Below, one piece after another: positions 30,700 through 39,273 of a stretch of 64,000 nucleotides of DNA; position 1 is the stretch's first letter, and each line of letters opens with the position of its first letter. The notes under the pieces were generated by a model. That model did no database searches and was not told where the DNA came from. It saw only the letters and a program-made list of their open reading frames with translations. Position numbers and translations under genes: made by a program. The stretch comes from Fimbriimonadaceae bacterium (GTDB lineage Bacteria; Armatimonadota; Fimbriimonadia; Fimbriimonadales; Fimbriimonadaceae), in contig JANJUB010000073.1 in NCBI GenBank assembly GCA_024710805.1, positions 1 through 64,000 of the forward strand. The letters run 5' to 3'.

Positions 30700-31341
30700 C
30701 TACTCCAACCCAATCCCTGACGCCTTCCAGAGCAGCGCGGCCTGGTCTTTCCCAAGATCGAGCGCCGGGAAGCCGCTACCCTTGTCTTGCGTCAGCGCCC
30801 GGTAGATTGCGTACGCCGCAACCCGCGACCCCAGCGCCGAGGCGTGGTTGCCGTCCTGCGCCCAGAGTTGCAACCCTCGTTGCTCGCGCAGCACGGCGTC
30901 CCAAACCCGTCCGACCGGGATGATCTTCGCGCCGCTCGCATCGGCGATCTTCTTGTAAATGCCCTCGATGTAGGCCGTCTCATCGACGCCGCGCCGGGGC
31001 CACTCGGAGAACAGAAACACCTTTGCGCCAGCTTGTTTTCCCTCCTTGGCAAGTGCAATCGCCTCCTTGTTGCTGTAGGTGAACCGGTGGGAGGTCGAGA
31101 TTGCCTGAGCTTGCAGAACGATCATCTCGTAGCGGCCGCTGCTGACCGCGTTACGGATCTGCGAGTCGCCGTACATGTCGTACAGCGTGGGCCCGAACCG
31201 CGACTCCGCGGAGATCGGGCGGCCACGCTCACGACCGAGCGCCGCCACCAACTTGGGAACATCGTTAAACTGGGTGTGCGAATTGCCAAGGAATAGCACC
31301 CGAAGGGGGGCTCCAAGAACCAAGGCAGCGAGGAGACTCAT
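30700..31341 (-). CDS. SGNH/GDSL-type hydrolase-like secreted protein
   Basis: LRVLFLGNSHTQFNDVPKLVAAL; ALGSRVAAYAIYRALT C-terminal block; N-terminal hydrophobic segment. Confidence 0.7.
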   Translation of the reverse strand: MSLLAALVLGAPLRVLFLGNSHTQFNDVPKLVAALGRERGRPISAESRFGPTLYDMYGDSQIRNAVSSGRYEMIVLQAQAISTSHRFTYSNKEAIALAKEGKQAGAKVFLFSEWPRRGVDETAYIEGIYKKIADASGAKIIPVGRVWDAVLREQRGLQLWAQDGNHASALGSRVAAYAIYRALTQDKGSGFPALDLGKDQAALLWKASGIGLE

Positions 31342-31396
31342 GCGGCTAAGACGTGTTTCGGAACCCGGGTGTTACGATTACCGCATAATCTCTTGC

Positions 31397-33172
31397 ATGT
31401 TGCCCCTCGTCCCCCTGCTGCTTCTCGGGTGTGCGTCTCCCGTTCAAGAGCCCGCCTACAAGAAGCTCGAATACCGCATTCCCATGCGAGACGGGGTGAA
31501 GCTGCACACAGTGGTTTATGTCCCTACCCACACGAGCGGCAAGAGTCCAATTCTGCTTGAGCGCACTCCTTACTCTGCCGGGCCCTACGGCGAGCAGGCC
31601 ATGTCACCGCAGAACTTTGGCGGCTCGCGGAAGTTCATCGACGCGGGCTACATCTTCGTGCAGCAGGACGTTCGGGGACGGTTCATGTCGGAAGGCAAGT
31701 TCGAGGAGATCAGGCCGCTTCGATCGCTGCAGGGTGACGCCAAGGCGACCGACGAGAGCACGGACGCGTACGATACCGCCGAGTTTCTCCTCAAGAACGT
31801 ACCGAACAACAACGGCAACATCGGCGTGTGGGGCATCTCCTATCCGGGCTTCTACGCCGCCTGCGCGGGCGCGAACAGCCACCCCGCAATCAAGGCGATT
31901 TCTCCTCAGGCACCGGTCAGCGAGTGGTTCTTCGGCGACGACGTCCACCACAACGGTGCCTTCTTCCTGCAAGACAACTTCGACTTCTACTTCTTCTTCG
32001 GGCTCGACATGGACAAGCCCGCGCCGCGACACCCTCAGCTCGAAGGCTACGGCCCGCGCGCAGACGCCTACAAGTTCTTCCTTGAGAAGGGCTCACCGGA
32101 CGACCTCGAACGAACCTACTTCAAGGGGCGAATACCCTTCTGGCGCGACATCATCGAGCATCCGAACTACGACGACTTCTGGAAGGCACGCTCCACCCCC
32201 CGCCACCTGAAGAACGTACGGGCGGCCGTTCTGACCGTTGGCGGATGGTTCGACGCCGAGAACCTCTACGGCGCGTTCGATACCTATCAGCATCTGCGTA
32301 AGCTGAACCCGGGCCTGATCCAGCACTTCGTGGTCGGGCCGTGGTCGCACGGCGGTTGGGCGGGAGGCACCGGGCAGCGCTACGCCGGGATGGACTTCGG
32401 CAGCGCAACTTCGACGTGGTTCCGCGAGGAAGTCGAGTTTCCGTTCTTCGAGCGCCACCTCCGGGGCATCGCCGGTGCTGAGATCCCCAAGGCCCAACTG
32501 TTCAACACGGGTCGCAACGTGTGGAAGTCCTTTGCCGAGTGGCCGCCGACAGACGCGAAGCCCTCGAGTCTGGTCTTACGCGATGCAACACCGCTTGGTC
32601 CGCAAAAGGATCGGTATGTGAGCGACCCAGCGTCTCCGGTTCCATACCAGTCCGGGACGATCCGAGGACGCAACTCTACCTATACCGTTGCCGATCAATC
32701 GTTCGTTAAGGACCGACCCGACGTGCTGACGTTCGCGTTTCCTCCGCAAACCGGGGAGCTGACGATGGCGGGAGCGGTCGAGGCCGATCTCACCTTCACC
32801 ACCGACGCGACCGATCTCGACTTCATCGTAAAAGTCATCGACCAGTATCCCGCCGATCATCCGACCCTGGGTGGCCAGCTGCGGTTGGTGCGTGCCGAGG
32901 TGATGCCGGCGCGGTTCCGAGCGAGCTTTGAGACGCCGACACCCTTGGTGCCGGGCAAGCCTCAAAAGGTGACCGTCCGCCTGCCGGACGTGTTCCACAC
33001 GTGGCGCACGGGCCATCGGGTCGTGGTGCAGATTCAGTCGTCGTGGTTCCCGCTGGTCGCCCGCAACCCGCAAGTGTTTGGCAACCCCTACAAGATTCCG
33101 GTGAGCGAGTATCGGAAGGCCAATGTGACCGTGGATTTGAGTTCAGCGATCCGGTTTGGGAAGATGCCTTAA
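31397..33172 (+). CDS. CocE/NonD family hydrolase (X-Pro dipeptidyl-peptidase-like), lipoprotein
   Basis: Start refined to MLPLVPLLLLGCASP; YRIPMRDGVKLHTVVYVP, QDVRGRFMSEGKFE, GNIGVWGISYPGFYAACAGANSHPAIKAISPQAPVS. Confidence 0.92.
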   Translation: MLPLVPLLLLGCASPVQEPAYKKLEYRIPMRDGVKLHTVVYVPTHTSGKSPILLERTPYSAGPYGEQAMSPQNFGGSRKFIDAGYIFVQQDVRGRFMSEGKFEEIRPLRSLQGDAKATDESTDAYDTAEFLLKNVPNNNGNIGVWGISYPGFYAACAGANSHPAIKAISPQAPVSEWFFGDDVHHNGAFFLQDNFDFYFFFGLDMDKPAPRHPQLEGYGPRADAYKFFLEKGSPDDLERTYFKGRIPFWRDIIEHPNYDDFWKARSTPRHLKNVRAAVLTVGGWFDAENLYGAFDTYQHLRKLNPGLIQHFVVGPWSHGGWAGGTGQRYAGMDFGSATSTWFREEVEFPFFERHLRGIAGAEIPKAQLFNTGRNVWKSFAEWPPTDAKPSSLVLRDATPLGPQKDRYVSDPASPVPYQSGTIRGRNSTYTVADQSFVKDRPDVLTFAFPPQTGELTMAGAVEADLTFTTDATDLDFIVKVIDQYPADHPTLGGQLRLVRAEVMPARFRASFETPTPLVPGKPQKVTVRLPDVFHTWRTGHRVVVQIQSSWFPLVARNPQVFGNPYKIPVSEYRKANVTVDLSSAIRFGKMP

Positions 33173-33187
33173 GCGATTACACGGAGC

Positions 33188-33360
33188 GTCGCGGTGGGTT
33201 CGTCCCGCGACATTGTTGTCAAGCCGCGAGGGCTCCGCGGGGACGATTCAACCCGCGGCCTCAGTGTGGCTTCCGCTTAGTAATGGTAGGAGATCCCACG
33301 GGCACGTATCATCCCGTGGCTACGAGAATCTTGTAGCCGGCGGATGATAGGTGCCGCCGG
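33188..33360. repeat. Intergenic array of four 7-bp stem/10-nt loop hairpins (REP/BIME-like)
   Basis: 33188-33211 GTCGCGG/CCGCGAC; 33235-33258 CCGCGGG/CCCGCGG; 33296-33319 CCACGGG/CCCGTGG; 33337-33360 CCGGCGG/CCGCCGG; every loop is 10 nt. Confidence 0.8.
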
Positions 33361-33365
33361 TCTGC

Positions 33366-34004
33366 TCAAGCCGCTTCGGCGCCGTAGAGATAGCTGCTGA
33401 ACGCCCGGTCACCCATCACCAGGTCGAAGTCCGGGCTGCACTTGGCCTCTTCGAGCATGGAGGGATCGGCCCGGACGGCGTCTTGCAGAGCACCGATGGC
33501 CTTATCCGCATTGCCTTCGAGGGCAAAGAGCCGAGCCAGGTTGAAGTGCGCGATCGCGAGCTTCGGGTCTAACCCCGTCGCCCTTTGATAGGACGCGCGG
33601 GCGGCCATCCGATCGCCCCGGAGTTCATGGGCCGCGCCGAGACTCGCATGCGCTTCCGCGTAGATCGGGGACAATACGGTCGCTCGCTCCAGATGCGGAA
33701 GCGCCGCGGCGGCGTTCCCAATCGACAGCAGGCATAAGCCCAGCTGATGATGTGCAGGGGCGTGTTTCGGGGCGATCTCGGTCACCATGCGAAACTCGTG
33801 GATCGCTTCGCTCAGCGAACCCCGACGCATGAGCGCAAGACCCAGTTCGAACCGAGCATTCGTATCGCGCGGATTGCGGCGAACCAGCGCGGTGTAATGA
33901 TCGACCGCACGACGCGGCTCGTTGCCGGGATGCGTAATCCGCCAAAGCCCGACCAAGCAGGCAACGGCGATTGCCACCAACAGATAGGTAATCCCATCGA
34001 CCAT
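33366..34004 (-). CDS. Membrane-anchored tetratricopeptide repeat protein
   Basis: N-terminal TM; repeats such as NARFELGLALMRRGSLSEAIHEFRMVTEIAPKHAPAHHQLGLCLLSIGNAAAALPHLERA. Confidence 0.85.
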   Translation of the reverse strand: MVDGITYLLVAIAVACLVGLWRITHPGNEPRRAVDHYTALVRRNPRDTNARFELGLALMRRGSLSEAIHEFRMVTEIAPKHAPAHHQLGLCLLSIGNAAAALPHLERATVLSPIYAEAHASLGAAHELRGDRMAARASYQRATGLDPKLAIAHFNLARLFALEGNADKAIGALQDAVRADPSMLEEAKCSPDFDLVMGDRAFSSYLYGAEAA

Positions 34005-37463: not shown

Positions 37464-37541
37464 ATCCGTTCAACGCGAGGGCACGAGCATCCCGCGCCCA
37501 CAAGAGAGAGTCCCTGAACCGGCGGGTATCTTCAAAGACAC

Positions 37542-38445: not shown

Positions 38446-38476
38446 CCACGAGGGCGCGCGGGGTGTTGTACCGCGC
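38446..38476 (-). repeat. Hairpin repeat copy A
   Basis: Minus strand GCGCGGTACAACACCCCGCGCGCCCTCGTGG. Confidence 0.75.
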
Positions 38477-38630: not shown

Positions 38631-38662
38631 GCGCGGTACAACACCCCAGCGCACCTCGTGGG
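38631..38662 (+). repeat. Hairpin repeat copy B
   Basis: GCGCGGTACAACACCCCAGCGCACCTCGTGGG; inverted relative to copy A. Confidence 0.75.
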
Positions 38663-38679: not shown

Positions 38680-38714
38680 AAGCGCGGTACGAACCCCCGC
38701 GCTTGTTGGGCGCC
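38680..38714 (+). repeat. Hairpin repeat copy C
   Basis: AAGCGCGG-TACGAACCC-CCGCGCTT stem-loop, then GTTGGGCGCC. Confidence 0.65.
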
Positions 38715-39239: not shown

Positions 39240-39243
39240 TCAA

Positions 39244-39273
39244 GCGCTGTAAAACACCCCCGCGCGCCTCGTG
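39244..39273 (+). repeat. Hairpin repeat copy D (diverged)
   Basis: GCGCTGTAAAACACCCCCGCGCGCCTCGTG. Confidence 0.6.

Follow-up and report, generated by a model that had tools for sequence, protein, structure and literature searches.

The four hairpins in the spacer between a CocE-like hydrolase gene and a gene for a TPR-repeat protein are best explained, with a probability of about 0.93, as REP elements, i.e. non-autonomous palindromic DNA repeats, that are arranged as inverted BIME/REPIN doublets, were likely moved by RAYT transposases and are now old copies. They lie in a 64,000-nucleotide stretch of DNA from a Fimbriimonadaceae bacterium, which was analysed as a whole and is referred to below as the window. 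Its source genome (G000, 3.25 Mb), which contains a bacterial 16S gene, was compared with that of a second species of the same genus (G001), the one other genome of the genus in the comparison. Each REP has a 7-bp stem and a 10-nt loop, with a tag tetranucleotide (GTAG, GTGG, GAGG or GAGC) placed at the 5' foot of the stem. Judging from sequence comparison, RAYTs of the same bacterium very probably spread these REPs, of which there are about 100 per genome. The copies in the window lie between the 3' ends of two convergent genes and are now probably passive sequence.

Table 1. Features of the window and the REPs found at clade-A RAYT genes of G000 (contigs C1 to C190)
Feature	Position	Strand	Tag and sequence parts	Remarks
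CocE-like hydrolase ORF	31175..33172	+		Peptidase_S15 + PepX_C; upstream neighbour; true start perhaps further in
REP el1	hairpin (24 nt) 33188-33211; with tag 33184..33211	+	5' extension CACG (33180-33183); tag GAGC; stem GTCGCGG, loop TGGGTTCGTC, stem CCGCGAC	like REPs beside the RAYT on C167
REP el2	hairpin (24 nt) 33235-33258; with tag 33235..33262	-	5' extension CACT; tag GAGG; stem CCGCGGG, loop TTGAATCGTC, stem CCCGCGG	GAGG/..CGTC type, like REPs of the RAYTs on C27 (first gene) and C138
REP el3	hairpin (24 nt) 33296-33319; with tag 33296..33323	-	tag GTAG; stem CCACGGG, loop ATGATACGTG, stem CCCGTGG	core GGATGATANGTGCC
REP el4	hairpin (24 nt) 33337-33360; with tag 33333..33360	+	tag GTAG; stem CCGGCGG, loop ATGATAGGTG, stem CCGCCGG	core GGATGATANGTGCC
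TPR-repeat protein gene	33366..34004	-		convergent neighbour; G001 ortholog 88% identical
Degenerate REP	37473..37503	-	GTGG-GCGCGGG-ATGCTCGTG-CCCTCGC	~44-bp segment containing the REP absent from the orthologous G001 site
RAYT	C34		GTAG/ATGCATCGTG	bracketed by these REPs
RAYT	C27, first gene		GAGG/TTGCATYGTC	bracketed by these REPs
RAYT	C27, second gene		GTGG/NTGYCTYGTR	bracketed by these REPs
RAYT	C190		GAGG/TTGGYTCGTA	bracketed by these REPs
RAYT	C138		GAGG/TGGGYTCGTC	bracketed by these REPs
RAYT	C1		GTGG/ATGTATCGTG	REPs beside the gene, plus 11-nt-loop GTAG forms
RAYT	C167 (contig end)		GAGC/TGGGCTCGTC; CG-GAGC-GTCGGGG-TGGGCTCGTC-CCCCGAC	REPs beside the gene

The initial annotation had described four perfect 7-10-7 hairpins at this locus, and the sequence matches that description letter for letter; the neighbours that it named are also in place, with the Peptidase_S15/PepX_C domains on the plus strand and the TPR repeats on the minus strand. 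The GTAG flank that it noted on the third and fourth hairpins is true of these two, while el1 has GAGC and el2 has GAGG at that place. All elements have the same layout if each is read on the strand to which it belongs: the tag is followed by a stem arm ending in GG, the loop and an arm beginning with CC, so that all four share a pattern of GG-NTGNNTCGTN-CC-like loops. The orientations run + - - +, and three types are represented, namely CACG-GAGC (el1), CACT-GAGG (el2) and GTAG (el3 and el4). The last two elements form a divergent doublet, both halves of which can be folded into one long hairpin (REPIN-like). A search of the window against Rfam gave no match. Separately, the start of the window carries a near-perfect 105-nt inverted repeat (positions 1-105 and 145-249, 93%) with a 39-nt spacer.

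These elements are members of a dispersed family. A covariance model, scanned against the genome and its relative as had been proposed initially, found 126 copies in G000 and 122 in G001 at E<=0.1, and 37 copies align without gaps. The loop core of el3 and el4 occurs exactly 21 times in G000, these two included, and is preceded by GTAG in 17 of the 21; when up to two mismatches are allowed there are 85 occurrences, compared with 12 for a reversed control. About ten inverted pairs with members 25-50 bp apart are found elsewhere in the genome. In 1.2 Mb of G001 there are 96 strict REPs and a single one in the reversed control. In a scan of 61 genomes from the taxonomic family, a stricter filter (E<=0.001) left 77 copies in G000, 73 in G001, 39 in G014 and one stray match, with none in the others. 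The copies in G014, which belongs to another genus, share the 7-10-7 geometry; they carry GTAG, and their loops are ATGGTTCGTG-like. These 39 REPs (L302-L316) often form unequal doublets with CCGGGGG/CCCGCGG stems. Neither REPs nor a clade-A RAYT were found in G039, a genus mate of G014. Because exact GTAGCCNNGGATGATACGTGCC (GTAG type) was not found in the GTDB r220 contigs, a collection that possibly does not contain the source and near genomes, the exact GTAG REP appears to be very narrowly distributed. The window has additional palindromic repeats, CACGAGG-GCGCGCGGGGTGTTGTACCGCGC and its relatives, at 38446-38476, 38631-38661, 39243-39273 and 38681-38703. Apparently these represent a degenerate CCAC-GAGG REP type; a pattern search gave 8 matches in G000, 14 in G001 and none in the reversed control.

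The hairpin is preserved among the copies through compensatory stem changes. When 21 loci were picked by their loop alone, pairing was seen in 100 of the 105 outer stem cells, compared with a mean of 67.9 and a maximum of 89 in 10,000 shuffles. In a larger seed set (R1), which was selected by stem and is therefore biased upward, 98.1% of cells are paired and two-sided changes number 76, against 24.6.

A RAYT-type transposase encoded outside the window had been suggested as a possibility, and the genome does contain Y1/RAYT genes bracketed by hairpins of this kind. A Pfam Y1_Tnp search of G000 identified 13 genes that fall into three sets. IS200-like proteins on C67, C157 and C78 form one and a C131/C2 pair forms another, both without consistent flanking REPs; the third, clade A, comprises eight genes, most of which are bracketed by a REP type of their own (Table 1). 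All 12 aligned clade-A proteins (the 12-member clade A2) match the NCBIfam family NF047646, "REP-associated tyrosine transposase", and the sole PDB match of the clade-A RAYT is TnpAREP 4er8 (E=1.8e-14). The HxH and Y---NP motifs (H77, H79, Y135, N139, P140) are invariant in the clade-A alignment; an HUH motif and Y---NP are the features of class 2 RAYTs (PMC6006769). A loss of the catalytic tyrosine was considered under the class rule of that work and rejected, since the tyrosine of Y---NP is invariant. The closest named RAYT relatives outside the genus are in Armatimonadetes MAGs, so that the host probably belongs to Armatimonadota. Two further clade-A sequences may be recorded here. On C14 (L036/L077) a divergent RAYT lies next to a different, longer GTAG repeat, GTAGCCCCGGGTTGTGAGCGAAGCGAACCCCCGGGG, and on C60 (G000:C60:16646-17113, L173) there is a relative, probably a pseudogene, that has a single in-frame TAG and no REP found within its 3.5-kb locus. 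In G001 the REP type is unchanged at the orthologs of the first C27 gene (C22), of the C190 gene (C26b) and of the C1 gene (C28); it is likewise unchanged at C1b, the counterpart of the second C27 gene, for which 70% identity makes orthology less sure. Thus the further copies in the genome and its relative, the compensatory stems and the REP-bracketed RAYT genes bear out the REP/BIME reading of the locus.

Three points count against this reading. First, neither G000 nor G001 yielded a RAYT with REPs of the exact GTAG...ATGATACGTG type on both sides. The RAYT of el3 and el4 is therefore missing or unassembled, and the nearest type is that of C34; orphan REP classes are reported to be frequent (PMC3686654). 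Second, a search of G014 for a clade-A RAYT found none, despite the 39 model matches in that genome. Third, the tags of el1 and el2 lie outside the published GT(A/G)G. The C131 transposase was considered as the el3/el4 enzyme on account of a GTAG REP pair nearby, but the G001 ortholog, 96% identical, is without such a pair and the C131 protein falls into a different Y1 group; this candidate was rejected, and the nearby pair is probably coincidental.

The tags of the 233 REPs of the two genomes are distributed as GTAG 75, GTGG 68, GAGG 67 and GAGC 9; hence 143 have GTAG or GTGG, as do el3 and el4, and 76 have GAGG or GAGC, as do el2 and el1, respectively. A conserved extension adjoins the tag. 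It is CACG in the GAGG..GTA and GAGC types (the GAGC set being small), CCCT in the GAGG..GTC type, CCAC in both the CAGGG-stem GTGG type and the GAGG..GTG type, and TT or TC in most GTAG/GTGG copies. In the RAYT tree, the base of which is weakly supported, the genes with CCCT form one clade (92/91), those with CACG another (94/88), and the two together a third (96/96). This tag and extension code places el1 with a C167-like RAYT, while el2 falls in with the RAYTs of the C27/C138 group. No convincing conserved 3' flank that might mark a cleavage site was found at a fixed position in the large pooled REP types. We tentatively propose, with somewhat less than even confidence, that a single RAYT lineage gave rise to many paralogs in the same genome, and that the guide tetranucleotide (GTAG/GTGG to GAGG and GAGC), a clade-specific 4-nt 5' extension (CCCT, CACG, CCAC, TT/TC) and the loop were rewritten along the tree. 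If this is true, the genome would hold a natural series of re-targeted guide and cleavage codes, in which each RAYT serves its own REP class and cross-talk is absent.

In the likely mechanism, the folded REP hairpin with its tag, as single-stranded DNA, would be bound by its cognate RAYT, a Y1 HUH endonuclease (TnpAREP), which would cut beside the hairpin and move or copy the REP to new, mostly intergenic sites. We infer both that this cleavage chemistry applies to these REPs and that the copies in the window were placed by these RAYTs. When REP sites of G000 were compared with part of G001, some testable sites had equal spacing and the remainder differed. The RAYT region of C34 is absent from G001 (1,478 bp versus 157 bp), and the C138 stretch is about 500 bp shorter there (716 bp versus 218 bp), with a REP-like stretch left behind. 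Differences of a single REP are seen at window position 37473 and at further sites. Such presence or absence of REPs and RAYT units between the species represents gain or loss, the direction of which is not given by the comparison alone. The interval around window position 38696 was also seen to be about 800 bp longer than in G001. A count of placements in the 1.2 Mb of G001, with a crude longest-ORF annotation, assigned 57 of 96 REPs to intergenic space, which makes up about 7% of this DNA. Thirty of the 57 lie between convergent ORFs (18% of intergenic bases) and five between divergent genes (29% of intergenic bases). The locus in the window, between convergent ORFs, is typical. Such placement could reflect either tolerance of insertions or a role at 3' ends.

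The second of these possibilities bears on an alternative that had also been raised at the outset, a structured RNA processing or termination module. In this reading the hairpins would be a structured RNA or a terminator or mRNA-end module that is selected at this site and ends or protects both convergent transcripts. The convergent spacer and the general enrichment of REPs in such spacers would fit this idea, as would the better folding of the segment as RNA than that of shuffled sequences (z -4.05). It would also fit the near-identity of the el1-el2 stretch between the species, whose surroundings are about 87% identical. However, the enrichment is also expected from insertion tolerance, no intrinsic terminator (a GC-rich hairpin followed by a T-run) is present in 33100-33450, and about 100 sites unrelated to this one carry such hairpins as well. 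The orthologous spacer in G001 also argues against it. All four elements are present there in the identical order and el1 is unchanged, but el2, el3 and el4 each have one pair-breaking stem substitution, none of which is compensated. We therefore regard a selected RNA or termination module as unlikely. The el1-el2 stretch (window 33173-33264 versus L100) differs, by eye, at about 2 positions in 95 bp, which may reflect local constraint, gene conversion or chance.

The same comparison qualifies the initial argument that covarying stems imply selection on structure. Compensation is real across the dispersed copies, but covariation as proof of selection at the window locus was rejected, since the changes at the orthologous site break pairs. 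Together, the hairpin kept among copies and the pair-breaking changes at one site point to selection on the copying process and not visibly on the site in the window. Because three of the four elements each carry such a difference in the ortholog, the copies in the window look like old, decaying ones. This locus cautions against reading covariation among dispersed copies as a sure sign of selection at any single site.

Another proposal was that the elements form kissing-loop pairs, in which loops 1 and 2 and loops 3 and 4 evolved for mutual base-pairing. As written, the loops are complementary at 7 of 10 and 9 of 10 positions, respectively, and to this extent the observation stands. Its explanation is a different one, because homologous loops in opposite orientation (+ - - +) are complementary by necessity. 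Inverted copies of one family always have complementary loops, doublets elsewhere are alike in this respect, and the loop matches the transposase type and not the partner loop, which together leave the kissing-loop idea very improbable. The least credible alternative, that these are chance palindromes in GC-rich DNA, draws on the roughly nine perfect 7-bp hairpins found in the window for each other loop length, and is refuted by the clustering of four hairpins of the same loop length within about 150 start positions (Poisson P near 8e-9, or ~6e-5 once windows and loop lengths are roughly corrected for), by the common loops and tags, by the ~126 copies and by the far lower counts in reversed-sequence controls.

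REP elements with RAYTs are a kind of system that is already known, and the leading inference of the initial annotation is right. In the REP/BIME and RAYT systems of Stenotrophomonas maltophilia and the E. coli REPtrons (PMC2817692, PMC8266576) a short palindrome likewise bears a tag at its 5' foot, and these systems share with the present family the inverted doublets, the intergenic dispersal, RAYTs flanked by cognate REPs and a class 2 transposase with HUH and Y---NP. The family described here differs from them in having GAGG and GAGC tags besides GTAG/GTGG and eight clade-A RAYTs in a 3.25-Mb genome, and the REPs of E. coli form a bulged long hairpin. Its 10-nt loop (sometimes 9 or 11) is conserved in sequence, whereas the rule for short hairpins is 2-5 nt (PMC6006769). 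The REP classes and RAYT orthogroups of Pseudomonas and Stenotrophomonas (PMC3686654) are similar in that a REP class is tied to a RAYT, there are several RAYTs per group, REP abundance follows RAYT presence and orphan REPs persist after RAYT loss; the tag is defined there as GT(A/G)G, whereas here the tag and the preceding 4 nt vary between RAYT clades. GTAG-tagged palindromic repeats, which occur in several phyla including the PVC group (PMC3733652), also have GTAG at one end, stem families with complementary changes, and dimers. Their loops are mostly very short, and a term search of that paper found no mention of Armatimonadota or Fimbriimonas. RAYT relatives in MAGs of Planctomycetota, Nitrospirota, Deltaproteobacteria and Verrucomicrobia (L185-L205; ~35-42% identity) are mostly flanked by GTAG-tagged hairpins with short loops, such as GTAGC-CGCAGGC-TTTA-GCCTGCG, in contrast to the 10-nt loop here; within this set only Armatimonadetes (L187, L191) have a 10-nt ATGGTTCGTA/TTGATTCGTC-like loop.

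Relative to the cited REP/RAYT literature, what appears to be new is the long conserved 10-nt loop, the GAGG and GAGC tags and the 4-nt 5' extension specific to a RAYT clade. A large RAYT/REP radiation is thereby documented in an uncultured bacterial genus, the nearest named relatives of which are Armatimonadota. Published search rules for REPs (GTAG/GTGG, with a loop of 2-5 nt for short hairpins; PMC6006769) would miss these elements. It has been proposed, and tested with engineered variants, that the tetranucleotide, through base complementarity, guides the selection of the dinucleotide that is cut (PMC8266576). The natural tag variants described here (GTAG, GTGG, GAGG and GAGC), each beside its own enzyme, make this guide rule and the specificity of RAYTs for their REPs directly testable.
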